This document shows positions 32,187 to 45,937 of a DNA stretch of 64,000 nt, piece after piece (position 1 is the first letter of the stretch; the number at the start of each line of letters is the position of its first letter). The notes under the pieces are model-generated. The model had not been told where the DNA came from, ran no database searches, and saw only the letters and a list, made by a program, of their open reading frames with translations. The stretch is from an uncultured Clostridia bacterium (GTDB lineage: Bacteria; Bacillota; Clostridia; Lachnospirales; Lachnospiraceae), in NCBI GenBank assembly GCA_948467395.1, contig CAOKDX010000008.1:1-64000 (forward strand), written 5' to 3'. A program made the translations under genes and the position numbers.

Positions 32187-33611
32187 ATGCAGATTACAAT
32201 TAACGCTGATGCCGCCAATACAAAAAACATCCTGTCTCTTCTGGAAGAAATGGGATATACTCTTCCCTGCAACTGTCATGGCGGACATCACTGCGATGGC
32301 CGCACCTATCCCTTTGACTGCTCTCTTGTTCCAGCAAAACCGGTTACCATAACCCTTCCTTCATCCATCTCCGGCGTCATTATGGGAATTTCCCTGGAAG
32401 ACATGGTCCCTGCCAGGGGCACCGGAGATACTATACTCATAGATCTTGGCACGACCACTGTCGCTATGGCGCTGATCGACAGCACCACCGGTGAACTGCG
32501 TCAGACCGGCGTATTTGCAAACCCACAAAAAAAGTTCGGTTCGGATGTTATCTCCCGGATTCACGCATCACTTCATGGCGAAGAGAAAACCCTTACAGAT
32601 ATAATACGGCTGGCCATTGCAGAGCATGCCGCCCAGCTGTGCAGCAAAAACCAGCAGGGAACGGATAGCCTGACCAAATGTTACATCGCCGGCAACACAG
32701 CCATGATTCATATTTTAATGGGTTATGACTGCACCCCGCTCTCCCGAAATCCCTTTACCCTTGCAGAATCCACTCCCCCGCCCTTCCTGTATAACAACTG
32801 CAGGGTAAGGATTCTGCCCTGGTTCTCTGCCTTTGTGGGGGGCGATATCACAGCGGGAATGTACGCCTGTCATATGGAACCTGCCTCTTCCTGCCAGAAT
32901 TCTGATACCCTTCTGCTGATCGATCTTGGCACAAACGGCGAAATGCTGCTGCGGCATAAGGGACAATTCTACTCAGCCGCCACAGCGGCCGGTCCCGCCT
33001 TTGAGGGAAATGGTCTATCCTGCGGATGCCCCGGAATTCCCGGCGCTATAAGCAGCATCCGGCTCACACCGCTCCGTCCCCGGCTCACTACAATAGCGGA
33101 CCGGCTTCCGGTGGGAATCTGTGGTTCCGGCGCTGTTTCTCTCTGCGCAGAGCTGCTTCACCGCGGCTTCATCACAGCAGACGGTATCCTCACTGACCGT
33201 TTCCCCCCCCGTGGAATCCTGCTTGGCTATTCACCAGCCAAAGAACCATTGTATTTTACGGCAGAGGATCTAAGGCAGATACAGCTCTCGGTGGCCGCCA
33301 TTGCCGCAGGCATCGATACTCTTTGCTGCGAGGCCGGAATCAACCCCGATGATATTGCTGCGGCCTATCTGGGCGGGGGCTTTGGCTTCTATCTCGATAT
33401 GGACTCCTGCCGGACACTTGGACTCTTCTCGTCCCTTCCCATCTCACGCATAAAGCCCATGGGAAATACCTGCCTTCGCGGACTCTTCCGTTGTGCCTGC
33501 GGGGGAGACGACATCTCCTGCCTCACCGTCCCCCCCACACACAATGTCGCTCTGGCAGAGCATCCTTTTTTTCGTCAGCAATTTATCTCTCACATGACAT
33601 ATTCCGGCTGA
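32187..33611 (+). CDS. RACE/DUF4445-type ATP-dependent reductive activator of a corrinoid protein
   Basis: The 474-residue protein resembles RACo/RamA-type activators, which use ATP and a reduced iron-sulfur cluster to bring corrinoid Co(II) to Co(I). Its core is an ASKHA ATPase-like fold: DTILIDLGTTTVAMALID near 85, YIAGNTAMIHILMG near 170, LLLIDLGTNGEMLL near 245 and the DUF4445 parts GPAFEGNGLSCG, AYLGGGFGFYLD and MGNTCLRG. The N-terminal ferredoxin part is very short, with cysteines at 28, 30, 36 and 45, unlike the usual C-x4/5-C-x2-C pattern. No methyltransferase or corrinoid-protein gene lies nearby, so its partner is elsewhere. The end overlaps the convergent FHA gene by 22 bases. Confidence 0.8.
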   Translation: MQITINADAANTKNILSLLEEMGYTLPCNCHGGHHCDGRTYPFDCSLVPAKPVTITLPSSISGVIMGISLEDMVPARGTGDTILIDLGTTTVAMALIDSTTGELRQTGVFANPQKKFGSDVISRIHASLHGEEKTLTDIIRLAIAEHAAQLCSKNQQGTDSLTKCYIAGNTAMIHILMGYDCTPLSRNPFTLAESTPPPFLYNNCRVRILPWFSAFVGGDITAGMYACHMEPASSCQNSDTLLLIDLGTNGEMLLRHKGQFYSAATAAGPAFEGNGLSCGCPGIPGAISSIRLTPLRPRLTTIADRLPVGICGSGAVSLCAELLHRGFITADGILTDRFPPRGILLGYSPAKEPLYFTAEDLRQIQLSVAAIAAGIDTLCCEAGINPDDIAAAYLGGGFGFYLDMDSCRTLGLFSSLPISRIKPMGNTCLRGLFRCACGGDDISCLTVPPTHNVALAEHPFFRQQFISHMTYSG

Positions 33612-34771
33612 GTAATCTCCACCACATACTCATGGCCGCCGATACGGAGCAGGTCACCGTCCTCCAGACGGGTTTTATGCCATGGCAGAAGCCTTCTGTC
33701 ATTGTGGTAGACCGCCTGTCCGGAATCCTCATCTACTACCATTACCATCCCCGCCTCCTGCAGTATATGAACAACAGAGTGACAATCCCACTCCCTGTTT
33801 TCCATCTTGATCCGATAAGGAAAATACGGAATGGGAACCACCTCTTCCTCTCCCGTCTGCGGTATCAGGCAAACCCTGTTCCGATCCCGTTTTTCATCCT
33901 GGAAACAAACCGGCATCTCTTTCTTTTTACCGGCATGCTCCGGCAGGGTTTTCCATACTCCATAACCCGATACAGCCAGAAAAAATAATGTTGTTCCGAC
34001 GGCCTTCATCCAGTCCGTTCCGCCAGATACAGGCAGTCGAAACATTCCCATCCACCAAAGAACCATGGGCAGAAGCACTCCCGCCGCCAAAATCATTCCG
34101 GGAAGAAAGCATCCGCGGATAAACCGCGTCCGCCGGGTTTTGCATCGCCCCGCGGTCAGGAGGGAGTTGTTCTCCACCTTCGTCGGCGCCGGGACAGAAT
34201 TCGGCACTTTGCGGTTCTCTGCCGGACAAAACATTGACATCTCTTCATAAATATATTCCCTCAGCATGTCCCTCGTACAATCTGTCCCTCTGGTGAGTTT
34301 GTGCATTCCATAGATAAAAAATACCAGTTCCCTGTCCTTCTGGTTCATTTTATCCATAATCACCTCCAGCAGATGTCCCACCGCCTCCGCCGTTCCCTGC
34401 TTATGATCTTCATGATAAATCCCCTCCCATATTCCCCTGCCGGAATCAAGGTACAAAAAATCTTCCCGTATCACAACGCTTCTGCTGTCCAGCAAATATT
34501 CTTCCATGCAGTCGGCCATATCAAATATCTGTCGGAACATCTGCTGTATATCTGTCCTGGAGAAATTTTCCCTCTCCAGAAATTTCTGGAGAGAGATCCT
34601 TCCTGAAATATTAAATACATATTCCTTCTGACCGTTGATCCGGCGGAGCTCCATTGGCAAAAAACCCGGAATCTCCTGGTATAAAAACATTCTGTCGCTA
34701 ATCACCTCCTCTTCCGCTCCCCTGATTTTCAGGTAGTTTCCCGTTCCATCCTGTACCACCTCGCACTGCAT
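33590..34771 (-). CDS. DUF6382/FHA-domain protein of the Tad pilus operon
   Basis: This 393-residue protein has an N-terminal DUF6382-type domain of about 180 residues (PGFLPMELRRINGQKEYVF; ISLQKFLE; FRQIFDMADCMEEYLLD), a disordered link, two transmembrane helices near 225-270 and a C-terminal FHA domain (residues 310-390; DCHSVVHILQEAG, VYHNDRRLLPW, LEDGDLLRIGGHEYVV). FHA domains bind phosphothreonine peptides. Although the FHA R-x(n)-S-x-x-H pattern is loose, such proteins commonly close clostridial Tad operons and may link pilus assembly to a Ser/Thr kinase. ATG follows GGGGGGAAA. It is the last gene of the operon. Confidence 0.75.
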   Translation of the reverse strand: MQCEVVQDGTGNYLKIRGAEEEVISDRMFLYQEIPGFLPMELRRINGQKEYVFNISGRISLQKFLERENFSRTDIQQMFRQIFDMADCMEEYLLDSRSVVIREDFLYLDSGRGIWEGIYHEDHKQGTAEAVGHLLEVIMDKMNQKDRELVFFIYGMHKLTRGTDCTRDMLREYIYEEMSMFCPAENRKVPNSVPAPTKVENNSLLTAGRCKTRRTRFIRGCFLPGMILAAGVLLPMVLWWMGMFRLPVSGGTDWMKAVGTTLFFLAVSGYGVWKTLPEHAGKKKEMPVCFQDEKRDRNRVCLIPQTGEEEVVPIPYFPYRIKMENREWDCHSVVHILQEAGMVMVVDEDSGQAVYHNDRRLLPWHKTRLEDGDLLRIGGHEYVVEITQPEYVM

Positions 34772-34786
34772 CTGTATTTCCCCCCT

Positions 34787-35209
34787 TTATCCAGACCGGA
34801 GTATTTCCCGGTCCCACTTATTTTTCGCCGGAACTATATGTTCTCTCACCGTCTCATATACCAACTCAGTCTTTCCCCTCATAAAAATCTTCTTTAATAA
34901 GCTGCCGGATATCGGCAGTATATAGCGAATCTGTATCTTTCTGCCCGCCAGCACGGAGTGAGCCTTCACCCCGCGAATCCGGATGAGCAAAAATTTCTTG
35001 TCCAGTTTTTCCCTGACCTTTTCGCACCAGCTGACTGATTTCTCCGGCTCAGACGATGAGAGCCAGACCGCTGCCTCCCCATTTGTAACTGACTCCAGCA
35101 GCACCATATCATGTACGTACAGACCGCAATAGCAGACTGCCGTCAACACCCAGATACAGATACTCATTACAAAGACAGCTTCTACCGTATAAACTCCCTT
35201 CCTTCTCAT
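34787..35209 (-). CDS. TadE-like minor pilin (short)
   Basis: A 140-residue protein with a basic start, then the TadE-type pseudopilin segment KGVYTVEAVFVMSICIWVLTAV (about 4-26) including the conserved glutamate of the prepilin motif, followed by an extracytoplasmic domain. It would be a minor pilin inserted in the membrane and trimmed by a prepilin peptidase. ATG 35209 overlaps the stop of the preceding peptidase gene as ATGA; an in-frame ATG lies six bases upstream at 35215. Function is inferred from family and operon. Confidence 0.72.
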   Translation of the reverse strand: MRRKGVYTVEAVFVMSICIWVLTAVCYCGLYVHDMVLLESVTNGEAAVWLSSSEPEKSVSWCEKVREKLDKKFLLIRIRGVKAHSVLAGRKIQIRYILPISGSLLKKIFMRGKTELVYETVREHIVPAKNKWDREILRSG

Positions 35210-35625
35210 AGGCATAACAGCATCCCATACGCTGCTGCCGTAAACGGAATAAAGGGCATCTTATATCTTCTCCCCACCCGGCGGAATACCAGAAGAAAAG
35301 CCCCTGCCACCGCTGCCAGAAACAAACTGACCATCAGCACCTCCAGGCTCGCCGTAAAGCCCAGGGAAAGCCCCATCACTGCATAGACAAGGGCGTCCCC
35401 CTCTCCCACCGCACCATGGCTCAGCTTGCTGACCGCCCACAACAGCAGGCCGGTGCTTATGCCCGGAAGCCATTCCATCCACGGGTTCTCCCGTAGCATC
35501 TGCTGCAAAACCACCGCTGCAGCGCACACAATTCCGGGAATTACAGGAATTTCCTTTTTTCTTATATCAAACCATGCCATTAGGACGGTATAACACCCGC
35601 AGACAATCCAAATCAACATCTCCAT
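35206..35625 (-). CDS. A24-family prepilin peptidase (second copy, TadV/CpaA-like)
   Basis: This membrane aspartyl protease of about 139 residues trims the leader of Flp-type and TadE-type pilins. It shows both catalytic aspartates: one in AWFDIRKKEIP near 20 and one in GAVGEGDALVY, the GxGD motif. It has four to five transmembrane helices and lacks the methylase domain, as in TadV. ATG 35625 follows AGAGGAAAGAG; the frame reaches 35658 through the upstream gene. Another A24 peptidase (43080-43619) starts the same operon, so the two may serve different pilins. Confidence 0.82.
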   Translation of the reverse strand: MEMLIWIVCGCYTVLMAWFDIRKKEIPVIPGIVCAAAVVLQQMLRENPWMEWLPGISTGLLLWAVSKLSHGAVGEGDALVYAVMGLSLGFTASLEVLMVSLFLAAVAGAFLLVFRRVGRRYKMPFIPFTAAAYGMLLCL

Positions 35626-35645
35626 CTCTTTCCTCTCCCCTTTTC

Positions 35646-36419
35646 TCAGCTGCCGCACTTACTGCAGGGTGTCCGTTTCCCTGCTTGGGACAGCTGGATT
35701 TTTTTTACGTTTCGCTTTATCCCGCTGCAGGAACGGATAATATGATACCGGTCTCCAAAATTTGTAATCCAGACCTCATCTGATCCCGCCGGTACAATGT
35801 CTTTAACACACCGCTCACAAGGTTTGTATCTCCCCCCGCTGTCGTTCCGGAGACTGGCCGTATCACCATATTTCATCTGGGAAATACTCAGCCGCAGATA
35901 GGTGCAGCTTCTCTCCCGGTGATACACTCTCCCTGTCTCCGTTACATATACCATTATGTCTCCCTCTTCTTCCACGTTCTCTCTTCGTTCCACCCCGGTA
36001 AAGGCTCTTGTGTGTACACGCTGCCGGAACCGGCAGGATCCGGCGGGAATCAGCCGGAATGGTATTTTTGCGTAATACACCGCAATCAGATCAATTTCAT
36101 CGTTCCGCTGTAACACGGATGATTCCAGAAGAGACACTGCCAGTCCTTTCACCTCCAGGCAGTCATTGATCCTCGTCTGGTAATATGCCCGGTTTGCCAG
36201 CAATTTGTTCTCTCCTGCCCCATATTCTGCCGAAGCCTCTCTCGCCACCCGTGTCAGTGCCCACTGAACCTCATCCTGACATCTGACAAGGAGTCCCAGA
36301 TAGGCTGTCAGAAGCATGCCAAACAGAAATACTGGCAGTACCAGCGCCGCCTCCACTGTCATAGATCCTCTCAGAGCGGGAAAGGGTATCCTATTCCCAT
36401 GGTTTTGCACATTTGTCAT
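35646..36419 (-). CDS. TadE-like pseudopilin with two C-terminal cysteine (CxxC) repeats
   Basis: The 257-residue protein has a TadE-type start (RGSMTVEAALVLPVFLFGML, 17-36, with the prepilin glutamate), a long extracytoplasmic domain, then two copies of an approximately 45-residue motif: VYVTETGRVYHRERSC...CERC and VWITNFGDRYHIIRSC...CSKC. Each has the layout Y-H-x(4)-S-C then P-C-x-x-C, also found in other secreted clostridial proteins and likely to bind metal or form disulfides. The 5' coding region contains one arm of a 25-bp inverted repeat, the other lying after the upstream stop. There is no strong ribosome site at ATG 36419; ATG 36362 (within GSMTVEA) follows GAGAGGA but would cut the pilin motif. 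Confidence 0.75.
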   Translation of the reverse strand: MTNVQNHGNRIPFPALRGSMTVEAALVLPVFLFGMLLTAYLGLLVRCQDEVQWALTRVAREASAEYGAGENKLLANRAYYQTRINDCLEVKGLAVSLLESSVLQRNDEIDLIAVYYAKIPFRLIPAGSCRFRQRVHTRAFTGVERRENVEEEGDIMVYVTETGRVYHRERSCTYLRLSISQMKYGDTASLRNDSGGRYKPCERCVKDIVPAGSDEVWITNFGDRYHIIRSCSGIKRNVKKIQLSQAGKRTPCSKCGS

Positions 36420-36501
36420 AATGCACTCATATTTATTTTTTGTATTGATAGATTGATCCCCTTTTCTTTATTTTTTTAGAATACCCTTTCCTGCTCTGAG
36501 A
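36369..36501. repeat. 25-bp inverted repeat spanning the tadE-like start
   Basis: Arms at 36369-36393 and 36477-36501 match in 23 of 25 positions when one is reverse-complemented (core TCTCAGAGC, then GGAAAGGGTAT). Both differences are transitions. They bracket 83 bases that hold the spacer, the start codon and the first eight codons of the tadE-like gene. The outer arm begins seven bases after the DUF5702 stop. It could be an invertible segment or, in the mRNA, a long stem with the translation start in its loop. Confidence 0.8.
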
Positions 36502-36508
36502 ATCTCAT

Positions 36509-38536
36509 TTAAAGATAACCTTTCGTAATCTCACAGGTATAAGAGTAATCCCGTATGTCCCGTCCCAGCATACTTCTAATAGCTGGCAGCCGGAAAAACC
36601 TTGCAGGGAATGTCACGCCTGCTGACACAGTGAGGGAATAAACACAGCTGGCAAGCTGAAAATCTTTATATCCATTGCGTTTCATATCCCACTGGATCAG
36701 ATCCATGATCCGGTACAGACGCGTGCTATGACCGGTCAGAGCCAGAAAGAGAAGCAGATATTCCCCATATCCAAAGGATTTTTTCCCTGCCGGCCTAAAT
36801 TTTTCCGCCCGCTTCGTAACCACCTTTCCCGATAAACCAAAGATTTCGGAAAAACCTGTAAGAATCTGCGATGGCGTCTTTATTACCGGCACATGCCTCG
36901 CCTGAAGCAGTCCCGCTATATCCACAAGGCCTTCTACAAATGACCACACAAGGAGAATCAGTGTCTGTGTCAGACGGATCAGAGGTTCCAGGCCAGTAAA
37001 ACCCACCACGGCAGCGGCGGCGGCATACGCCTCTGCTTTCCTTGCCGGATCTTTATAAATGGCAGCAAAATTTACCGGCATCCGGATCAAAAGGATCCGG
37101 TTTAGCACCGTCTGAAGGTTTTCCCTGTCCGACCCCCTGCCTGCAGCTATGTACTCCCACTGGTACTTCAAAGTTTTCTTCCAGCCGGATGTTTCCTGAA
37201 TATAATTAGAAAAACGGTCCTGAATATAAGAATCCAGACAAAATTCATCCATTCCATATCCCCCAAGCTCTCCCAGCACGCCTGTCAGCGATACCTCCTT
37301 TTCTCCCGCCAGCGCTGTCACCCGTTTTCCATAATCCTCGTTCTTCCCGTCCCGATTTTCATATAGCCTGGCAAAGTTATCCGGCTCTGCCACCTCCGCA
37401 CCAGAGAGCTTATCCGGATCCCGACAGGTAAGATTTAGAATCCCATTTCCCCATACCCCTGACATAGCGTCTACTGGATCCGGGGCACCGCCCTTTTCCT
37501 CCACTCCCGTATAATCAAAGGCGATGGTTTCCGTATCATAATCCTGCCACAGCTGCTGTAACCGTTCCTCTTCTCCTTCCTGTCTCTCTGCCTGAAGAAT
37601 CCTGCATGTCTCTGACAGAATTTCCCTGTTTGTCTCAAGAACAGACATCTGCCGTATTAGAGTTTCCATTTTTCTGTCATGATCGGCAAATTCCGTTTTT
37701 TCCCTCCCGTATTTCCGAAATCCCGTTTTCAGACTCACGGCCTCCCGGACTGCCTGTTCTGTCAGTCGGAGCACCTTCTCCACCCTCCTTCGAAACCGTT
37801 GTCTGTCCAGCTTCGAAAAATGAACAGGGGTGTCATCTATATACGGTTTCATCTTTTTCCATACGGCCTCTGTCCCTATGGCAAAATTCTGGCTTGTAAT
37901 ATCCCCTGCCGCAAACATCTTAATGAATTCCGGTTCACAGTGAATCCTTCCTTCGGATACCGTGATACCGTCGATCCATTTCATAAGCTTCAGCATCTGT
38001 ACATCCAGTTCTGCCGCCTCCTGCTGTCTCTCCACAGTTTCCTCAATTTCCTCAGCCGTATCCTGGGAGCGGATGAGATCGGATGACTTATCCTGCCATG
38101 TCTCCAGCTGTTTCTTTGTCAGCCTCCGGAGCATATACTGATTGATTTCCTTCTGCAATGGTGCGGCGCCATTATCTCCCAGGCAGGTTTTCTCCTTCAC
38201 CCGGATCTGACTGATCCCCCCGGCCAGGAAATCCATTGACTGGCCGTCTGCCGCCTCCATCGTATCCGCCGCATAATCTGCTATCACTTTCTCATAAGGT
38301 GTCCCGCCGCTCTCGAGAAAAAATAGTCCGTAGTTTTCATAGAGTGGACGGCTGTATTCTGTCAACAGTGATTCCACGGCCGTCCGCACAGTCCTTGCCG
38401 TATGCCCGGCACACGCCGTATACCGGGCAGTCTCTACCAGTGTCCCCAACAGGGCGAGGATCAGAATTCCCGACAGAGAAAGAAACACCGTGATGCTGCC
38501 CCCCGCCCTAACCAATAATGTTCTTGGAGTCCGCAT
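36509..38536 (-). CDS. DUF5702 pilus-associated membrane protein (TadG-like)
   Basis: This protein of about 675 residues starts with the TadG/TadE-like segment AGGSITVFLSLSGILILALL and is otherwise a large extracytoplasmic, mostly helical domain (SLLTEYSRPLYENYGLFFLE is the DUF5702 hallmark) with further membrane segments near 535-560. It is a usual member of clostridial Tad loci and is thought to be a pilus-associated or assembly protein. The start is uncertain: ATGs at 38554 and 38536 both overlap the small pilin gene, and a TTG near 38518 is also possible. The 89-base gap after its stop holds one arm of the inverted repeat. Confidence 0.72.
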   Translation of the reverse strand: MRTPRTLLVRAGGSITVFLSLSGILILALLGTLVETARYTACAGHTARTVRTAVESLLTEYSRPLYENYGLFFLESGGTPYEKVIADYAADTMEAADGQSMDFLAGGISQIRVKEKTCLGDNGAAPLQKEINQYMLRRLTKKQLETWQDKSSDLIRSQDTAEEIEETVERQQEAAELDVQMLKLMKWIDGITVSEGRIHCEPEFIKMFAAGDITSQNFAIGTEAVWKKMKPYIDDTPVHFSKLDRQRFRRRVEKVLRLTEQAVREAVSLKTGFRKYGREKTEFADHDRKMETLIRQMSVLETNREILSETCRILQAERQEGEEERLQQLWQDYDTETIAFDYTGVEEKGGAPDPVDAMSGVWGNGILNLTCRDPDKLSGAEVAEPDNFARLYENRDGKNEDYGKRVTALAGEKEVSLTGVLGELGGYGMDEFCLDSYIQDRFSNYIQETSGWKKTLKYQWEYIAAGRGSDRENLQTVLNRILLIRMPVNFAAIYKDPARKAEAYAAAAAVVGFTGLEPLIRLTQTLILLVWSFVEGLVDIAGLLQARHVPVIKTPSQILTGFSEIFGLSGKVVTKRAEKFRPAGKKSFGYGEYLLLFLALTGHSTRLYRIMDLIQWDMKRNGYKDFQLASCVYSLTVSAGVTFPARFFRLPAIRSMLGRDIRDYSYTCEITKGYL

Positions 38537-38681
38537 TGAAGCTTTTAAAAGCATTTGTCACTACAGACGTAATCTTTGTCTTGAATAACAGTACCAGCGC
38601 CACCAGCACAACAAGGATCAATATGATCTCCACCACCCCAATGGCATCCTCTTCCCATATAAATAATTTTATCTCTTCCAT
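38508..38681 (-). CDS. Flp-type pilin (major pilus subunit), 57 residues
   Basis: A short frame of 57 residues reads MEEIKLFIWEEDAIG, then VVEIILILVVLVALVLLFK and a tail of about 22 residues. This is the Flp pilin plan: a short charged leader ending in glycine, a glutamate-containing hydrophobic helix and a small hydrophilic tail. Cleavage after Gly15 by an A24 peptidase would give a mature pilin of about 42 residues. GGGG lies at suitable distance before the ATG. It sits between TadC and DUF5702, the usual place, and overlaps the DUF5702 start. The gene falls below common length cut-offs for gene finding. Confidence 0.85.
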   Translation of the reverse strand: MEEIKLFIWEEDAIGVVEIILILVVLVALVLLFKTKITSVVTNAFKSFNADSKNIIG

Positions 38682-38697
38682 ACATTTAATCCCCTTT

Positions 38698-40053
38698 CTA
38701 CAATGTCATAAACGCCGGGACCAGAATGATCCCCATCACAAGGCCCAACATTACAATCATGGGAAATAACAGCTTTGTCCCCGCTGTCTCCCCCAGCCGG
38801 AGCAATCGCTCCCTGCGCTGCTCCATTGCCTCCAGCGCCTCCTGTTCCAGCAGATCCAGAATTCCCTCTGACCCCTTCTTCAAATTCTGGTTGATCACAG
38901 AGGAAAACCGAAGATACGGCAGCATTCGGCATTTCCTTCCAAAATTCTCCATTGCCTGTCCTTCCGATACCCCGTCTCGCATTTCCTGCGTCATGATACA
39001 GAGCTCCTCATATGCATAATGAATTCCCCCTCCCTCCTCTCTGGCTCTCTCATATTCAGATACGATTCTCTCCACACTCCTACGAAACGTCATACCCGCC
39101 CCCAGCAGTAGCATTACCTTATTCACCATGCCGGGATAATCCAGATACATCTGCTCTTCCCGTCTGGCTGCCTCTTTTTTCTGCCGTTCCCTCCAGAACA
39201 CGGGAAGGAAAAGGATCAAAACAAGAATCAGGTATACCGGCGTATAATTTTTCTTTGCCTCCTCCATGTGATAACTGAGCCTGATATCCCCGACAGATGC
39301 CGGCAGCTCTACAACCTTCTCCGACGCGCTGTCCTTCAGGGTTTTCTTTAATGCCTCCTTCACACTCCGGATCTGCTGCTTCTCCAAATCCAGGTCCGGC
39401 GGCACAAGATGCGCCTTAAAATACATGGTCTTTTTCCAGTTCCGCCAGGAAGCCTTAAGCATTATTTCCGTGTCCACTCCTTCTGGTGGAATTTTCGTCT
39501 CTGCCAGTGTACCATCTCTCCGGATGAATTTTTCGTCAAAGAACCAGCTTATCTCTATCCCCGTCCCTGGCACACTGCTGAAAAATCCCAGCGGCTCCGT
39601 CACCTGAGCAAGTGATTCATTTCTGCCCGGAAGTTTCTGTTCCGCAAAAACCCTCAGCTTCTTTTCGATCTGCTCCCCCTCCTCTGCCGAAATATCCTTC
39701 TCCTTGAGATCGAGCCGGACCCTCTTTTCCCATTGCCCGCTTTCACTGATCCCGGTAACATCAATTTCCACTGGGATATCTTCGCTCTGCCTGGACAAAT
39801 ATTTTCCCTCACGCAGCAATTCCGCTGCCGGATCTGACAAAAAACAGCAGAACCACACAGCCGCTGCCGCCGCCATAAAGAACAACAGGGAAACCAGTCT
39901 TCCGCCCCACAGTTCCTTTAAGGCATCCTCCCGCTTTTCTCTCGGATGCATCAGCTCCACATATTCACAAGCACTCTTCTCCCTGAAAAGCCAGCGCCCG
40001 GCATGCAGCCACTCAGTCAGACGCACTCCCAGCTTTTGTAATCGATCAGACAC
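38698..40053 (-). CDS. tadC: TadC-like inner-membrane platform protein (T2SS F domain)
   Basis: This 451-residue protein has an N-terminal membrane helix (near 52-72), an extracytoplasmic region of about 200 residues, a second helix near 270 and a C-terminal T2SSF domain (GMVNKVMLLLGAGMTFRRSVERIV through RRERLLRLGETAGTKLLFPMIVMLGLVMGIIL). It pairs with TadB to form the platform on which the ATPase acts. The large N-terminal extracytoplasmic part is longer than in classical TadC (about 300 residues). The start is GTG 40053 behind GGGAGGGGGGAG. Confidence 0.85.
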   Translation of the reverse strand: MSDRLQKLGVRLTEWLHAGRWLFREKSACEYVELMHPREKREDALKELWGGRLVSLLFFMAAAAAVWFCCFLSDPAAELLREGKYLSRQSEDIPVEIDVTGISESGQWEKRVRLDLKEKDISAEEGEQIEKKLRVFAEQKLPGRNESLAQVTEPLGFFSSVPGTGIEISWFFDEKFIRRDGTLAETKIPPEGVDTEIMLKASWRNWKKTMYFKAHLVPPDLDLEKQQIRSVKEALKKTLKDSASEKVVELPASVGDIRLSYHMEEAKKNYTPVYLILVLILFLPVFWRERQKKEAARREEQMYLDYPGMVNKVMLLLGAGMTFRRSVERIVSEYERAREEGGGIHYAYEELCIMTQEMRDGVSEGQAMENFGRKCRMLPYLRFSSVINQNLKKGSEGILDLLEQEALEAMEQRRERLLRLGETAGTKLLFPMIVMLGLVMGIILVPAFMTL

Positions 40054-40072
40054 CGCACTCCCCCCTCCCGAT

Positions 40073-40822
40073 TCATACCTGGCCGATCCCTCTCAATATT
40101 GCCCGGCTCCACGTAACAGCTGCCGCATAGGCCGCCAGAACAGCCGTCATAAACATCCTCCCTGAAAGTCCACGGTACAGCGGTATAAGAAAATCCGGTG
40201 AGAAGATCTGCAGATACAGGAGAATGAACAGGGGAACTGCCATCATGCAGCGGGCCTCCATTTTCTTTCCTGCCACTGCCGTCTGTATCTCCCTCTCCAT
40301 CTCCACCTTATCTGAGATATTGCCTGCCGTCCGTTTCATCACCCGCACCAGATTTCCCCCGCTTCTTCTCGCAGTGGAATAAATCTGGGCAAAGGTAATA
40401 ATATCTTCCAGGCCGCTGCGCCTTCCCAGATCAAGAAACAGACCGTCCAGAGGCTTATGAAGAGTAAGCTGCTGCCGGATCCCCCGAAGTTCCCTCAGCA
40501 TCATTGTCTCACCTCCATACATCAGCTGCATGTCACGGTATGCCTCTGTCACGGCGTTTTCCATAGAATACCCGGCTGTCAGTGCCGACACAAAGCTGTC
40601 CATGGCATCCTTGAACTCCAGCATCAGTTTCCACCTCTGCCCTGCCGCCAGGTGCTTTTTCTGATACCGCAGATACAGGACGGCACCAACGGCGGATGCC
40701 AGAAAGCAGAACAGGACGCTCTGATAAAAAAGATATAGAATAACAAAGCTGCCGGCGGCACCACAGAGGCCGTATCGGATTCTTTCCCGCCGCGTAAATA
40801 CATATCTGTTGTAATCCTTCAT
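40073..40822 (-). CDS. tadB: TadB-like inner-membrane platform protein (T2SS F domain)
   Basis: The 249-residue product has two N-terminal membrane helices, a cytoplasmic T2SSF domain (DAMDSFVSALTAGYSMENAVTEAY; IYSTARRSGGNLVRVMKRTA) and two C-terminal helices. It forms the platform with TadC. ATG 40822 overlaps the TadA stop as ATGA with GGGGGTGAAG upstream, so translation is coupled to TadA. It lacks the N-terminal extracellular domain present in proteobacterial TadB. Confidence 0.87.
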   Translation of the reverse strand: MKDYNRYVFTRRERIRYGLCGAAGSFVILYLFYQSVLFCFLASAVGAVLYLRYQKKHLAAGQRWKLMLEFKDAMDSFVSALTAGYSMENAVTEAYRDMQLMYGGETMMLRELRGIRQQLTLHKPLDGLFLDLGRRSGLEDIITFAQIYSTARRSGGNLVRVMKRTAGNISDKVEMEREIQTAVAGKKMEARCMMAVPLFILLYLQIFSPDFLIPLYRGLSGRMFMTAVLAAYAAAVTWSRAILRGIGQV

Positions 40823-42054
40823 ATCTTCACCCCCGCTCTCAGGCACTTCTCCGTATAAATCAACGGTCTCCCGGTGCTTTTCAGCTCTCCCACCACCTGT
40901 CCCTGACGCTCCCCTTCCTCCCGGAACACATACAGCGGAAACAGCTGGATCTTCCCCTCTGCCACTTCACCCACCTCACTGATCTCCAATACCTTTCTGG
41001 ATTTGTCCCGCAGACGCCCCAGATGTACCACAAGGTCGATTCCCGAAGCAATCTGATGCCGTATTGCCTCCAGCGGGATATCCAGCCCCATCAGTACAAG
41101 CGTTTCCAGGCGGTTCAGCATATCGGAGGGACTATTGGCATGGCCGGTGGAAAGACTCCCGTCATGCCCCGTATTCATCGCTGTGAGAAGATCAATGGCC
41201 GCCGAATCCCGGATTTCGCCGACAATGATTCGATCCGGGCGCATTCTCAAAGCACTTTTTACCAGATCCCGGATAGTAATCTGGTTTTTTCCCTCCACAT
41301 TGGCATTCCTGGCCTCCAGCCGCACTAGATTATCAATGTTTTGTATTTGCAGCTCCGCAGAATCCTCGATGGTGATAACCCGCTCATTGTGTGGAATATA
41401 ATTTGACAGGATATTGAGGAATGTTGTCTTGCCCGCCCCGGTCCCGCCGGATATAAAAATATTGTACCGCGCCTCTACCATTTTCCGCAGAAACTCCTCC
41501 GCCTCCTCCGTCACCGCCCCCATACGGATCAGCTTTTTCATAGTCAGGGCTTCTTTCGGAAACTTGCGTATGGTAATGACCGGCCCCTCGATAGCGATGG
41601 GGGGCACCACGATATTCACCCGGGATCCATCTGCCAGCCTGGCATCCAGTATTGGGCTGGACTCATTGACAATACGGTTTCCTGAAGAGGCAATCTGCTG
41701 GGCAATGTCCTCAAGTCTCTCCTGATGTTCAAAGGTAAGACCCGTCTCCGTGAGCCCTCCCTTCTTCTCCACAAAAATATGATCCGGACCATTCACCATA
41801 ATTTCCGTTACTTCCTCATCCTCCAGTATATCCTGCAGCACATCCATTTTTCGGATGGAATTGAACACGACATGCCGCAGTCTCCTCTTTTCCTCCAGAC
41901 GGATGTATTCCTCCCCCGCTGCCTGTTCAATATGCTTCCCGATCAGTATGTCCAGCTCTCTGTCGCTGATCTCCACTCCCGCCGGAATTTCTTTCATAAC
42001 CCTCTGCCGGATTTTTTTCCTTCTCTCATCCAGTGTCTTCCATGTCGATACCAT
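40819..42054 (-). CDS. tadA: TadA/CpaF secretion ATPase
   Basis: The 411-residue hexameric ATPase drives Flp pilus extension (and in some systems retraction). It shows Walker A GGTGAGKT at 203-210, the Asp box ITIEDSAELQ, Walker B RPDRIIVGEIRD and the His box TGHDGSLSTGHANS, all intact, and an N-terminal domain with EIMVNGPDHIFVE. ATG 42054 overlaps the TadZ-like end by 29 bases and has GGAGGAAGGAG directly before it. It has the best-conserved sequence of the operon. Confidence 0.95.
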   Translation of the reverse strand: MVSTWKTLDERRKKIRQRVMKEIPAGVEISDRELDILIGKHIEQAAGEEYIRLEEKRRLRHVVFNSIRKMDVLQDILEDEEVTEIMVNGPDHIFVEKKGGLTETGLTFEHQERLEDIAQQIASSGNRIVNESSPILDARLADGSRVNIVVPPIAIEGPVITIRKFPKEALTMKKLIRMGAVTEEAEEFLRKMVEARYNIFISGGTGAGKTTFLNILSNYIPHNERVITIEDSAELQIQNIDNLVRLEARNANVEGKNQITIRDLVKSALRMRPDRIIVGEIRDSAAIDLLTAMNTGHDGSLSTGHANSPSDMLNRLETLVLMGLDIPLEAIRHQIASGIDLVVHLGRLRDKSRKVLEISEVGEVAEGKIQLFPLYVFREEGERQGQVVGELKSTGRPLIYTEKCLRAGVKI

Positions 42055-43066
42055 CTCCTTCCTCCCCTCTCTCTAATGCCCGTTTTATACACTCCATCCT
42101 CCTGTCGTCTCCTGTCAGCTCCTCCAGTCTCACACTTCCCCATTCTGGCCCCGCCGGCACAAATTCTTCCGGCTGCCGGATATACCGTATCCGCTTTAAC
42201 AGCTCCTCTTTCCGCTCTGTGCGGCAGATTTTACGGAATACAGCACCCTGTACTCTCCCAATGACTCCCGGCACCTGCAGAAACAGAATCCTGTCTGCCG
42301 GTTCCATCAGATCGAGAAAATATTCAAAAACCTGCCCCATCTCAACGACAATGCTGTCATATCCGCACTCTCCCTGAAGTCTTTCCAGAAACCGCTCCCA
42401 GTCCTCCGGACGACAGTCCAGGAGATCCTTGAAATGTGCCAGCGGCGGCAGCATTTCCGCCCGACCAAAAGTAAGACAGATTTCCCTGGCCCGCTCCGCA
42501 AAATCCTCCTGCTCCAGCATAAAGATAAGATCCCCCATTCCTCCTGATATCGGGGAAGCCGTCTCCAGCTCCGCCCCGGAATACACCGGAAGTCCCGAAA
42601 GCTGCAGATACAGACACCGTCCCCTCTGCGCCAGATACTGCGAAAGCATAACCGAAAATTCTGTCGCATCCGCCGCATTTGGAGAAAATACCGCAAATAT
42701 TTTTTCCCATCCCTCAGCTCCCTCTTTCCGGGTTTCAGCCGGTCCTTTTTCCAATTCCAGCCTGCACTGCCAGAGAATCTCCTGATAGATCTTTTCTGCC
42801 CTCTGGTACTGGAAAATCTTTCCCTGTTCCCGGTCCGATACATTAGATAAATTGATCACCTTTCGTTTCTCATCCCCGTGTACTGCAGGATCATCCGTCA
42901 GTACCACCAGTCCGCCTGTTCTGGTTCCGGACCGGAATTTCATCCCTTTCTCCGCTGTCACCAGTTCGGGATGCAGTCCCGGATTTTTTTTCTTCACCAG
43001 AAAACGCAGGAGACGTTTCCCATACTCTACATCTTTCAGATAGAGCAGCAGAGTCACATCTTCCAT
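42026..43066 (-). CDS. TadZ/CpaE-like protein lacking a canonical P-loop
   Basis: This 346-residue protein has a receiver-like N-terminal half (VTLLLYLKDVEYGKRLLRFL; GGLVVLTDDPAV) and a MinD/ParA-like C-terminal half (IFAVFSPNAADATEFSVMLSQYLAQRGRCLYLQLSG; YDSIVVEMGQVFEYFLDLM; ADRILFLQVPG). It would place the pilus machine at its site in the cell. The deviant Walker A region SPNAADATEF lacks the KGGxGK(T/S) lysines, so ATP binding is doubtful. ATG 43066 follows GGGGGTG; the frame reaches 43090 without better support. Confidence 0.78.
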   Translation of the reverse strand: MEDVTLLLYLKDVEYGKRLLRFLVKKKNPGLHPELVTAEKGMKFRSGTRTGGLVVLTDDPAVHGDEKRKVINLSNVSDREQGKIFQYQRAEKIYQEILWQCRLELEKGPAETRKEGAEGWEKIFAVFSPNAADATEFSVMLSQYLAQRGRCLYLQLSGLPVYSGAELETASPISGGMGDLIFMLEQEDFAERAREICLTFGRAEMLPPLAHFKDLLDCRPEDWERFLERLQGECGYDSIVVEMGQVFEYFLDLMEPADRILFLQVPGVIGRVQGAVFRKICRTERKEELLKRIRYIRQPEEFVPAGPEWGSVRLEELTGDDRRMECIKRALERGEEGDGIDMEDTG

Positions 43067-43079
43067 GTGCACACCCCCT

Positions 43080-43619
43080 CTAAAAGGCACAGAAAAGCAC
43101 TGCTAAAGAGATCGCCACAACAAAGGGTATGATCCCGTCATCACCTTCCTGCTTTCTGTCATAATATTTTGTCCTACATTCTCCCTGCAAACAGCAGGAT
43201 ACATAATTGAATAAATGCCGAAAACGGCTTCTGAAATTTTTTCGGAGAATCATTTTGCCGATTGCCATTACAGCCCCTAGAAGAAGGGATACTGCCATGA
43301 TTGAAAAAAGCAGACGTAATCCGACAAAACTTCCGATCACTGAATACATCTTGCTATCGGATGCCCCGATCATGCGGTGCCGATAGAAGAAAAAACATAG
43401 AATAAAGGGAACGAATATTCCCATGAGCCAGGGGATGATTCCACAGAATCCCTGAAGACTGATCTGCCTGAACAGGCTGAACAAAACGGCTGGTACAATG
43501 AGTGAATTAGGCACCCTGTACCAGGTAATATCACACAGCGAGGCGGTTATGAGGATGAGAAACAGTACTTCCCTCTCCGGGATAAGCCTCACCTCCCAGT
43601 TGTGATGTGAGTAACACAT
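43080..43619 (-). CDS. A24-family prepilin peptidase (first gene of the Tad operon)
   Basis: A membrane aspartyl protease with catalytic aspartates in LCDITWYRVPN and GASDSKMYS, the latter a variant of the GxGD motif with serine for glycine. It has five to six transmembrane helices and no methylase domain. The start is unclear: ATG 43619 lacks a ribosome site and lies upstream of the predicted transcript start, whereas a strong GGGAGGTGA at about 43590-43600 points to translation beginning near 43580, where only non-standard codons are in frame. It leads the operon, with TadZ starting 13 bases after its stop. Confidence 0.8.
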   Translation of the reverse strand: MCYSHHNWEVRLIPEREVLFLILITASLCDITWYRVPNSLIVPAVLFSLFRQISLQGFCGIIPWLMGIFVPFILCFFFYRHRMIGASDSKMYSVIGSFVGLRLLFSIMAVSLLLGAVMAIGKMILRKNFRSRFRHLFNYVSCCLQGECRTKYYDRKQEGDDGIIPFVVAISLAVLFCAF

Positions 43620-43644
43620 TACCACATAGATTTCTGCTTGTCAA
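43616..43644 (-). promoter_or_regulatory. Candidate promoter of the Tad pilus operon
   Basis: On the - strand consensus TTGACA (43639-43644) and TAATGT (43616-43621) are 17 bases apart, just upstream of the first peptidase gene. The -10 is weak, which would suit a regulated promoter. Confidence 0.5.
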
Positions 43645-43747
43645 TACCTTTTTTTCCGGATTCATATTTCCATTTTTTGCATAAAATAGTAAAGAAAGGT
43701 TAAACTAATTTCGTATTGTTGTACTAATATGCCAAAGGAGGGCTCTT

Positions 43748-43957
43748 ATGGGACTGCGAAAAAAAAATCCCGTGTCTGCTGCACGGGAAAATCTGATAAA
43801 AGAAATAGAAGATCTTAAACAGGCTCTGGAAACGGCAAACTCCAATTTTGAAAATGTCTGTGATCCGGATCTGATCGATAGTTACATCTATGAGATGAAT
43901 GCCATCTCCGTCCGCTACCGTTATCTCCTGAAGCAAATGCGGAAGATGGAAGTATAG
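43748..43957 (+). CDS. Small YaaL-like (DUF2508) protein
   Basis: A 69-residue, highly charged, mostly helical cytoplasmic protein. The layout fits the DUF2508/YaaL family, with a helix containing LIKEIEDLKQALETANSNFE, then DPDLIDSYIYEMNAISVRYRYLLKQ. In Bacillus the family member yaaL lies near recR; here it stands alone between the Tad and flagellar units. ATG follows AAAGGAGGG. Function unknown. Its stop lies at the base of a GC-rich hairpin shared with the fliS end. Confidence 0.65.
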   Translation: MGLRKKNPVSAARENLIKEIEDLKQALETANSNFENVCDPDLIDSYIYEMNAISVRYRYLLKQMRKMEV

Positions 43958-44018: not shown

Positions 44019-44498
44019 TCAGGCTTCAAAACCCCGGTTATGATTTACCCCCACAGCGATAGTCTCATTCAGGCTGTCACGTCCATAGGTCAGCCCTGCA
44101 TAAATCTGCTGTGTATTTTCCATAACGGGATCGGAATGATCCTGCTCCGCCACACCGCGGAATGCCGGAAGAAGCCCCTGTAATACGGCAGAGGCATGAT
44201 CCAGTCTGGCAGTTTCCCGCAGCGCAATACCCTGGCACAGTTCACGGTACACGTAAATATACAGCTGGCGCAGATAATGGGATATCTCATAATTGAGATC
44301 CAGACTGTGCAGCAATTCATCTACCATTCCCCTGGCGCGGTCAATTTCCTTCCGCGCCGCCGTGATATCCTTGCTCTCCAGACAGGATCTTCCCTCATCA
44401 ATGCTGGCAAGCGCCGCCTCATAGATGACAACCACCAGCTCGCTGCGGTTCGCCTGGGTGACGCGCGCCGCAAATTCCTGTAATTTCTCTTTCTCCAT
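44019..44498 (-). CDS. fliS: Flagellin export chaperone
   Basis: The 159-residue helical protein binds the C terminus of flagellin in the cytoplasm to keep it unfolded for export. FliS marks are a start with NRSELVVVIYEAALASIDEG and LNYEISHYLRQLYIYVYREL in the middle. Length exceeds the usual 125-135 residues by an extra C-terminal tail of about 25. It follows flagellin by 14 bases in the same operon, with AAGGTGA as ribosome site. Confidence 0.9.
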   Translation of the reverse strand: MEKEKLQEFAARVTQANRSELVVVIYEAALASIDEGRSCLESKDITAARKEIDRARGMVDELLHSLDLNYEISHYLRQLYIYVYRELCQGIALRETARLDHASAVLQGLLPAFRGVAEQDHSDPVMENTQQIYAGLTYGRDSLNETIAVGVNHNRGFEA

Positions 44499-44512
44499 AG
44501 ACTGTCACCTTT

Positions 44513-45937
44513 TTATCCCTGAAGCAGCTGCAGTATCGTCTGCGGCTGATTGTTTGCCTGAGCCAGCATAGAAGTACCCGCCTGCACCAGAACGCTGTAC
44601 TCCGTATACTTCGTCATTTCCTCAGACATATCGACATCTTCAATTCGTGAACATGCCTCCGTCAGATTTTCTGTCACTGTTCCCAGATTGCTCACTGCCG
44701 AATCCAGACGATTCTGATAGGCACCAAGCTTGGCGCGGACGCCGGAAACCTGAGTGATCGCATCATTATAGGAACGGATGGAAGCAGTGGCCCCCTCTTT
44801 GCTGCATACGTTGCAGTATTCCACATGTAATGCCTTCGTAGTAACCGGGGGAACCGAAATATCTATGGTCTGTCCCTCATTGGCGCCGATCTGGATCGCC
44901 ACGTATCCCGCATCCAGCATTGTCACACCGGCTGTTTTTCCAGCCTCCGCATTGGAAACATCAAAAATCATCTGGAAACCATTGCGGTCCGATACCTCCA
45001 CACGGCCGCCGTCGACAAATACAGTGGCAGTGTTGCTGAATCCGGATGTAAAATCTAATGTCACCTCTGCGTCCTTGCCGGCCACGGCTGCTGCGCCGTC
45101 GACTCCCAGCTTGGCTGCCAGCCCGGCATTGTCCGTGGTCAGGCTGATATTGTATGCGGCACCAGAAAGCTTGGATACAAAGGACAAGCCGGTTGCCGCG
45201 GCAAGATCGCATTCCGCCCCTCCGTTTACAGGGACGCAGTCAATATTCATCATCTCGGCATAATCACGAATCTTCGCATACACCTCACCATAGGTCTGTC
45301 CCTCTTCTATCTTAATAATCTCACCATTCAGCTGAATCGTCCCGGCATCCTCCTTCTTGACCGTCTCTGACGGTGTGGCAAATCCCAGCGTGCCTGTAGT
45401 GAGTTCCGCGCAACGCGGTTCCGCATCCACAGAAAACCGATAGGTCGTCAACTTTACGTCATCTGTAGCAGAAATCAGCTTAACTCCGACATTGTCAGAA
45501 GAAGACTGCCTGCAGCAGGAGCCGTCCAGCAGATTCATTCTGTTGTATTCTGTCTGCTCCGCAATTCGGTCGATTTCACTCCGCAGAGAGTCGATTTCAT
45601 CCTGGCACGCCTGACGATCCTCAATAGTGGTAGTACCTGTATTGGCCGCCTGCACTGACAACTCCCGGCATCTCTGGAGAATGGATTCGATTTCTGCCAA
45701 TGCTCCCTCGGCCGTCTGAATAAATGAAATCCCGTCGGAACCATTCTGACTGGCACGTTTTAGTCCCCTAATCTGTGCCTGCATCTTTTTTGAAATCGCC
45801 ATGCCCGCCGCATCGTCTGCCGCTTTGGTAATGCGATAGCCGGAGGACAGCTTTCTCGTGCTGTCCGTCAGCTTTTTCTGCACTGTATTCAGGTTAAAAT
45901 TAGCGCGCATCGCCGCTATATTGGTATTGATCTTCAT
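44513..45937 (-). CDS. Flagellin with an unusual number of cysteines
   Basis: The 474-residue flagellar filament subunit has conserved D0/D1 ends: MKINTNIAAMRANFNLN, ASQNGSDGISFIQTAEGAL and, at the C terminus, RLDSAVSNLGTVTENL and MSEEMTKYTEYSVLVQAGTSMLAQAN. The middle (about 140-395) is a variable surface domain. It has ten cysteines, including SCC near 141 and YCNVC near 385, and three of them (QRC, QAC, EAC) lie in the D1 helices, where filament proteins almost always avoid cysteine. ATG overlaps the upstream stop as ATGA. Translation is thus coupled to the DUF6240-like gene, with AAGGAAG upstream. Confidence 0.93.
   Translation of the reverse strand: MKINTNIAAMRANFNLNTVQKKLTDSTRKLSSGYRITKAADDAAGMAISKKMQAQIRGLKRASQNGSDGISFIQTAEGALAEIESILQRCRELSVQAANTGTTTIEDRQACQDEIDSLRSEIDRIAEQTEYNRMNLLDGSCCRQSSSDNVGVKLISATDDVKLTTYRFSVDAEPRCAELTTGTLGFATPSETVKKEDAGTIQLNGEIIKIEEGQTYGEVYAKIRDYAEMMNIDCVPVNGGAECDLAAATGLSFVSKLSGAAYNISLTTDNAGLAAKLGVDGAAAVAGKDAEVTLDFTSGFSNTATVFVDGGRVEVSDRNGFQMIFDVSNAEAGKTAGVTMLDAGYVAIQIGANEGQTIDISVPPVTTKALHVEYCNVCSKEGATASIRSYNDAITQVSGVRAKLGAYQNRLDSAVSNLGTVTENLTEACSRIEDVDMSEEMTKYTEYSVLVQAGTSMLAQANNQPQTILQLLQG

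Follow-up and report, generated by a model that had tools for sequence, protein, structure and literature searches.

A conserved mRNA hairpin at the DUF5702-tadE junction of Lachnospiraceae Tad operons that may control tadE translation

Between two genes of its Tad operon, an uncultured Lachnospiraceae bacterium carries a long inverted repeat that could act in either of two ways. If it acts as DNA, then recombination between its arms might invert the enclosed segment and turn off the tadE-like pseudopilin gene, as the original prediction for this locus proposed. If it acts as RNA, then the transcript could form a long stem around the tadE translation start, which the same prediction named as the alternative. 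Which of these is correct, and what would the element do for the operon? We addressed these questions with the window, meaning the whole stretch of 64,000 nucleotides that was analysed, and with genomes of the same genus, family and order. The coordinates of the repeat and of the genes on either side are given in Table 1.

Table 1. Features at the DUF5702-tadE junction of the window
Feature	Position	Strand	Remarks
DUF5702 gene, directly upstream	36509..38554	-	Pfam PF18960, E 1.7e-68; stop codon borders the hairpin
5' (upstream) arm of the predicted mRNA stem	36477..36501	-	7 nt past the DUF5702 stop codon
Loop, 83 nt	36394..36476	-	contains a tadE-frame stop codon, the SD-like AAAAGGGG (36465-36458) and candidate starts
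3' (downstream) arm	36369..36393	-	read in the tadE frame, gives leader codons around RIPFPALRG
tadE-like gene, called from ATG 36419	35646..36419	-	Pfam PF07811, E 4.5e-6; start uncertain

The repeat is real and is the strongest in the window. Its arms of 25 nt each are complementary at 23 of 25 positions (92%) across a spacer of 83 nt, and it scores 53 under one symmetric scheme that was applied alike to the window, to contig C1 of the same genome and to resampled controls. The sole other inverted repeat in the 64 kb with a score of at least 36 reaches 39, and the best in the 400 kb of contig C1 reaches 49. A chance match of this quality was originally judged negligible; the highest score in eight Markov-resampled sequences of 64 kb each is 34. 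RNA of the gene (minus) strand has a predicted folding energy of -55.3 kcal/mol (z = -5.2), and none of 200 shuffled sequences is equally stable. The predicted positions of the arms stand. Since the gene reads from the minus strand, 36477-36501 is the upstream arm, and the start codon that the arms were thought to enclose, ATG 36419, is doubtful. The other arm (36369-36393) lies within the tadE coding sequence or just ahead of the tadE start.

Several other identities were considered for the repeat. Its match at one place only in the organism's own draft genome (2.99 Mb) speaks against a repetitive mobile inverted-repeat element (MITE). With up to two mismatches allowed, the arm core GGGAAAGGGTATYC occurs 113 times, compared with 85 times for a reversed-pattern control, which is a modest excess. 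With regard to an intrinsic terminator, inspection of the minus strand revealed no U run after the 3' arm. Promoter and terminator scans, the latter admitting loops of 3-8 nt only, found nothing attributable to the hairpin.

The operon is read from the minus strand. It opens with a prepilin peptidase, followed by a protein that has no Pfam match, the T2SSE ATPase, a pair of T2SSF proteins (one scoring under the Pfam cut-off) and a short ORF resembling Flp. Next come DUF5702, the hairpin and the tadE-like gene, and after them a second prepilin peptidase. Its last two products are another protein without a Pfam match, which looks like TadE in its YTVEA motif, and a DUF6382 protein. This one Tad region contains two prepilin peptidase (Peptidase_A24) genes, at 35206-35658 and 43080-43625 on the minus strand; one precedes the ATPase gene and the other comes after the tadE-like gene. 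The Flp-like ORF (57 aa, 38508-38681, minus strand; MEEIKLFIWEEDAIGVVEIILILVVLVALVLLF...) looks like a Flp pilin, has no NCBIfam match and overlaps the called DUF5702 start (38554) by 47 nt. These overlapping starts may couple the translation of this pair of genes as well. The C-terminal part of the tadE-like gene (35646-36113, minus strand) encodes two similar stretches, YHRERSCTYLRLS...YKPCERC and YHIIRSCSGIKRN...RTPCSKC, whose PCERC and PCSKC sequences look like a duplicated metal-binding unit. The operon region (33500-43800) has 19 terminator-like sites compared with a shuffled mean of 7.5. Upstream of the operon, 44019-45937 of the same (minus) strand holds what we take to be a FliS-like ORF and a flagellin-like ORF.

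A search with the tadE protein found matches in 38 of 61 genomes, and 34 of the 38 belong to the window's genus, its own genome counted. A long helix lies just 5' of the mature pseudopilin codons at all of the 30 genus loci examined (28 by scan; L011 and L023 by inspection). In most genus members the nucleotides of the 3' arm are ATAGGATACCCTTTCCCGCC, and some members read them as RIPFPA. At four loci (L005, L006, L009 and L014) the 3' arm precedes the start codon and a tadE-frame stop is present. Since the same 3' arm is coding in some members and non-coding in others, the constraint acts on the nucleotides and not on the protein.

Covariation of the arms was originally put forward as a means of telling RNA from DNA, and the compensatory changes in the genus alignment favour RNA. 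In 30 aligned hairpins, 96.1% of cells are paired (90.7% in shuffles), both-sided changes occur in 13 pairs (shuffle mean 4.2), the covariation score is 0.265 (0.150 in shuffles) and none of 500 shuffles reaches the observed values, on the understanding that excising the loci around the arms, by pattern in 29 cases and by helix scan in one, biases the set towards conserved arms, and that related sequences can beat such shuffles without any structure. The arm-swap and G-U tests described below are independent of this comparison.

The hairpin is present at the DUF5702-tadE junction in 36 of 39 genus genomes. Covariance model R1 accounts for 35 of these, of which 30 are its training genomes and five (G017, G018, G031, G061 and G062) are not. 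A helix scan added G028, whose hairpin (L110) is diverged and occupies the same position. The remaining genomes (G003, G008 and G011) lack a DUF5702 match, and two of the three are less than 85% complete. Applied with stricter filters to 392 genomes of the order, R1 gave three matches, all from the window's genus. Judged by these matches, the sequence of the hairpin is specific to the genus. R1 also gave the first impression of a genus-only element, which was overturned by a scan downstream of DUF5702 that accepts any long helix and makes no use of sequence.

DUF5702 is present in 192 of 200 genomes of the family Lachnospiraceae, nearly all of them from different genera. Under a uniform rule (score of at least 36; 5' arm between -30 and +170 nt of the DUF5702 stop), the helix scan finds the hairpin in 117 of 130 other genera (82 of 90 plus 35 of 40), where the 130 loci are the best-scoring DUF5702 matches outside the genus among the 192 and about 60 lower-scoring genomes fall outside the scan. 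Control stretches of equal size farther downstream contain it in 0 of 40 cases. The same scan finds it at 0 of 20 DUF5702 loci of other families, which were drawn from a class sample and do not comprise every DUF5702 match. The 13 genera below the cut comprise L094 (33), L105 (35), L109, L118, L123 (32), L154, L157 (35) and L174 in the set of 90, in which L161 passes, and five in the set of 40 that include scores of 34 and 35. On these counts, a hairpin is kept at the DUF5702-tadE junction with changing sequence in most of the related genera examined. A set of 84 other-genus hairpins was used for the comparisons that follow; it leaves out L118, L154, L157 and L161, in which the best helix lies elsewhere or is doubtful, and L109 and L174, in which there is no helix.

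Two tests bear on whether selection acts on the stem as RNA. With G-U taken as paired and the best of seven offsets used, own arms are 97% complementary on average and arms swapped between genera are 62% complementary. In 82 of the 84 hairpins, no arm from another genus matches better than the own partner. The second test concerns the mispairs on the tadE-sense strand, which amount to 212 G-U and 24 A-C in the 84 hairpins when the helix is chosen with both penalised equally. Counted per hairpin, G-U is in the majority in 73, A-C in one, and the two are equal in 10. The window's genus gives 54 G-U and 7 A-C in 35 hairpins, a count that omits L018 because a longer false helix was picked there. 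A further 35 hairpins of other genera give 100 G-U and 21 A-C, with L249 kept despite nine A-C pairs that probably reflect an over-extended helix. An excess of G-U over A-C on the mRNA strand indicates selection on RNA. This asymmetry has no evident reason in DNA inverted repeats and is expected of an RNA that functions on the tadE-sense strand.

The same results bear on whether the structure might lack a function or be a by-product of coding, with the leader codons complementary to the ribosome binding site by accident. Many other genera do have a 3' arm that encodes a recurring leader ([EGK]R[AVI]S...), together with a Shine-Dalgarno (SD) sequence and start in the 5' arm. However, the window's genus keeps the pairing with a non-coding 5' arm and, at the four loci mentioned above, with a non-coding 3' arm as well. 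Together with the covariation in the genus alignment and the far better match of own than of swapped arms, this makes either reading highly improbable.

If the segment were a flipping switch, then some of the loops should be found reversed. Among 120 loops compared, 64 have an alignable partner and 56 have none; the alignable pairs run in the same direction in 118 cases, of which 83 do not involve the window's genus, and in opposite directions in none. Reverse-complementary 8-mers in two loop sets (GTACGAAT and ATTCGTAC) were considered as possible flips and rejected, as a BLAST comparison of loops with loops gave no opposite match. A Pfam scan of ten proteins of the Tad operon, two of them without any match, gave no recombinase. 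The repeats are of suitable length for recombination and lie near a surface-structure gene, as would suit an inverton, but recombination between DNA arms does not predict a G-U bias on one strand, and a G-G mismatch is retained in 9 of 30 genus hairpins. With no reversed loop in 118 pairs, a G-U to A-C ratio of 212 to 24 and compensatory changes in the arms, the invertible switch of the original prediction is no longer tenable as the leading explanation, and we give it almost no weight. As a structure, the long mRNA stem around the tadE translation start has strong support, and it extends across the family.

The position of the tadE start relative to this stem differs among genera. A recognisable TadE motif accompanies 78 of the 84 other-genus hairpins and is lacking in six. 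An SD sequence with an ATG or GTG lies inside the 5' arm in 51 of the 78 and was not found there in the other 27. In 42 of the 51 this start is in frame with the pseudopilin and no stop intervenes; in nine it is out of frame or closed by a stop. In L081, for example, the tadE start region makes up the 5' arm, AAGGAGGTGAAGGCAG-ATG-CCC. The DUF5702 stop lies a median of 8.5 nt before the stem; 63 of the 84 hairpins have it within 20 nt, 11 have it inside the arm, and in the window the distance is 7 nt. The 3' arm ends a median of 11 nt before the mature TadE motif.

In the window, the stop codon of the loop closes the tadE frame ahead of the 5' arm. The likeliest start lies after the hairpin at 23 of 36 genus loci, in the loop at 11, and in the 5' arm and the 3' arm at one each, according to a rough SD and start scan that at several loci, the window included, prefers the mature motif's own internal ATG or TTG. 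ATG 36419 is replaced by ATC in the two closest relatives (L003 and L004). The SD-like AAAAGGGG is kept in the window and in both of these relatives, where it precedes an in-frame non-AUG codon (ATC 36449) at which L015 has ATG. ATG 36362, past the hairpin, is also conserved in all three and would leave no leader. In the window's genus, the tadE start has apparently shifted to the loop or beyond the hairpin. Since the genus stem is conserved and compensated even though the start seems to lie outside its 5' arm, it must have a role other than burying the start. It is possible that the stem holds the foot of DUF5702 near the tadE start, that it limits scanning ribosomes, or that it serves in RNA processing.

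We propose that the hairpin controls the translation of tadE, the gene of a minor pilus protein, throughout the family, to which we assign about an even chance. Across the family a predicted RNA stem with covariation and strand-specific tolerance of G-U occupies a conserved place directly after a stop codon, and in many genera it includes an in-frame start. With a DUF5702 stop about 8 nt before the stem and a start in the 5' arm, the arrangement is the one that translational coupling would lead one to expect. The form seen most often in other genera would have the tadE SD and start codon buried in the 5' arm of the stem. A ribosome ending DUF5702 would halt at the foot of the stem and then open it, tadE would be translated, and its output would track that of DUF5702. 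From the layout we infer such opening by ribosomes, the coupling and an effect on the ratio of the proteins. In the window's genus, with a start in the loop or just past the hairpin, the stem probably still sets the access of terminating ribosomes to tadE. One review describes an RNA-unfolding model of coupling, in which the downstream start is shut until a ribosome terminating upstream opens the stem, and states that structure right after the upstream stop codon can reduce coupling (PMC12548453).

Simple coupling is at odds with the window's genus, in which the starts mostly seem to lie outside the 5' arm and burial cannot explain why the stem is retained. The other genera whose 5' arm gave no SD and start, or one out of frame or closed, and the 13 genera below the cut also count against it. 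An RNA processing or stability element would work in the window's genus; RNase III-like cutting or a block to 3'-5' decay would then give unequal lifetimes to the machinery part of the message upstream and the pseudopilin part downstream. The start here often seems to lie past the hairpin, and the stem stays when the start moves. Some 20-35 nearly perfect pairs soon after a stop codon are a plausible substrate for a double-strand-specific RNase. In 42 of 78 other genera, however, the in-frame start of tadE is within the stem, where cutting would destroy tadE, and nothing would call for a pure processing site to overlap the ribosome binding site. It is because the stem is still kept in a genus that does not suit simple coupling that we rate translation control no higher than we do and consider processing a possible, if rather less probable, explanation.

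Other roles for the RNA could be to pause transcription, to bind a protein or to act in trans. The loops are enriched in the pyrimidine motif CTCTC, which 42 of 84 other-genus loops contain (L081-L176; the shuffled mean is 7.5 and the shuffled maximum 13), frequently in the form CTCTCCAAGTAC or CTCTCCGGGCA. Translated in the frame of tadE, the motif mostly encodes SLQ-, SLR- or LPS-like residues and may be conserved at the protein level. It pairs modestly with the 5' arm in a truncated transcript (mean 0.26 versus a loop average of 0.12; above 0.5 in 16 of 66). We regard such roles as improbable.

A broader form of the proposal is that an uncatalogued cis-acting RNA governs TadE synthesis across the family and that the stem itself is selected, wherever the start codon lies. 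We rate this at slightly under an even chance. The stem could then be a gate at the foot of DUF5702 that is read by ribosomes, by an RNase or by a dedicated double-strand RNA-binding protein.

Tad pili need their components in very unequal amounts. To our knowledge, how one polycistronic message sets these amounts is a largely open matter. Present at one junction in 117 of the 130 genera sampled, and in many of these with the start codon inside the stem, the hairpin is a direct candidate for setting the dose of pseudopilin and could be tested cheaply. Searches for invertons should allow for the possibility that long inverted repeats are RNA stems. A count of G-U versus A-C mispairs on the transcript strand can distinguish an RNA stem from a DNA repeat by sequence alone.

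Rfam gave no match at the gathering threshold for positions 35000-38000 of the window or for the loci of 13 relatives, with sub-threshold matches of unrelated kinds (E of at least 0.2), and searches of open-licence literature gave no paper on the element. It has in common with invertons two long inverted arms near a surface-appendage gene, and differs in having no flipped loops, G-U-biased mispairs and a covarying RNA stem. A long stem between two genes of an operon is also seen in intercistronic stabilising or RNase III stems, such as that of the puf operon. What sets the present stem apart is that, in many genera, it takes in the translation start of the gene downstream. A further similarity is to the coupling hairpins of phage f1 (VII/IX) and MS2 (coat/lysis), which are described as acting by RNA unfolding (PMC12548453). 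As in these phages, 42 of 78 other genera have a hairpin over the downstream start, with the stop codon adjoining, in one operon. Unlike the phage hairpins, the present element occurs family-wide at one junction, its partner arm is as a rule found some 50-240 nt farther downstream, within or close to the tadE leader codons, its stem stays when the start seems to have moved out, and it is known from sequence alone. The kind of mechanism is familiar, and a family-wide stem that persists while the start seems to leave it is, as far as can be tested, new.
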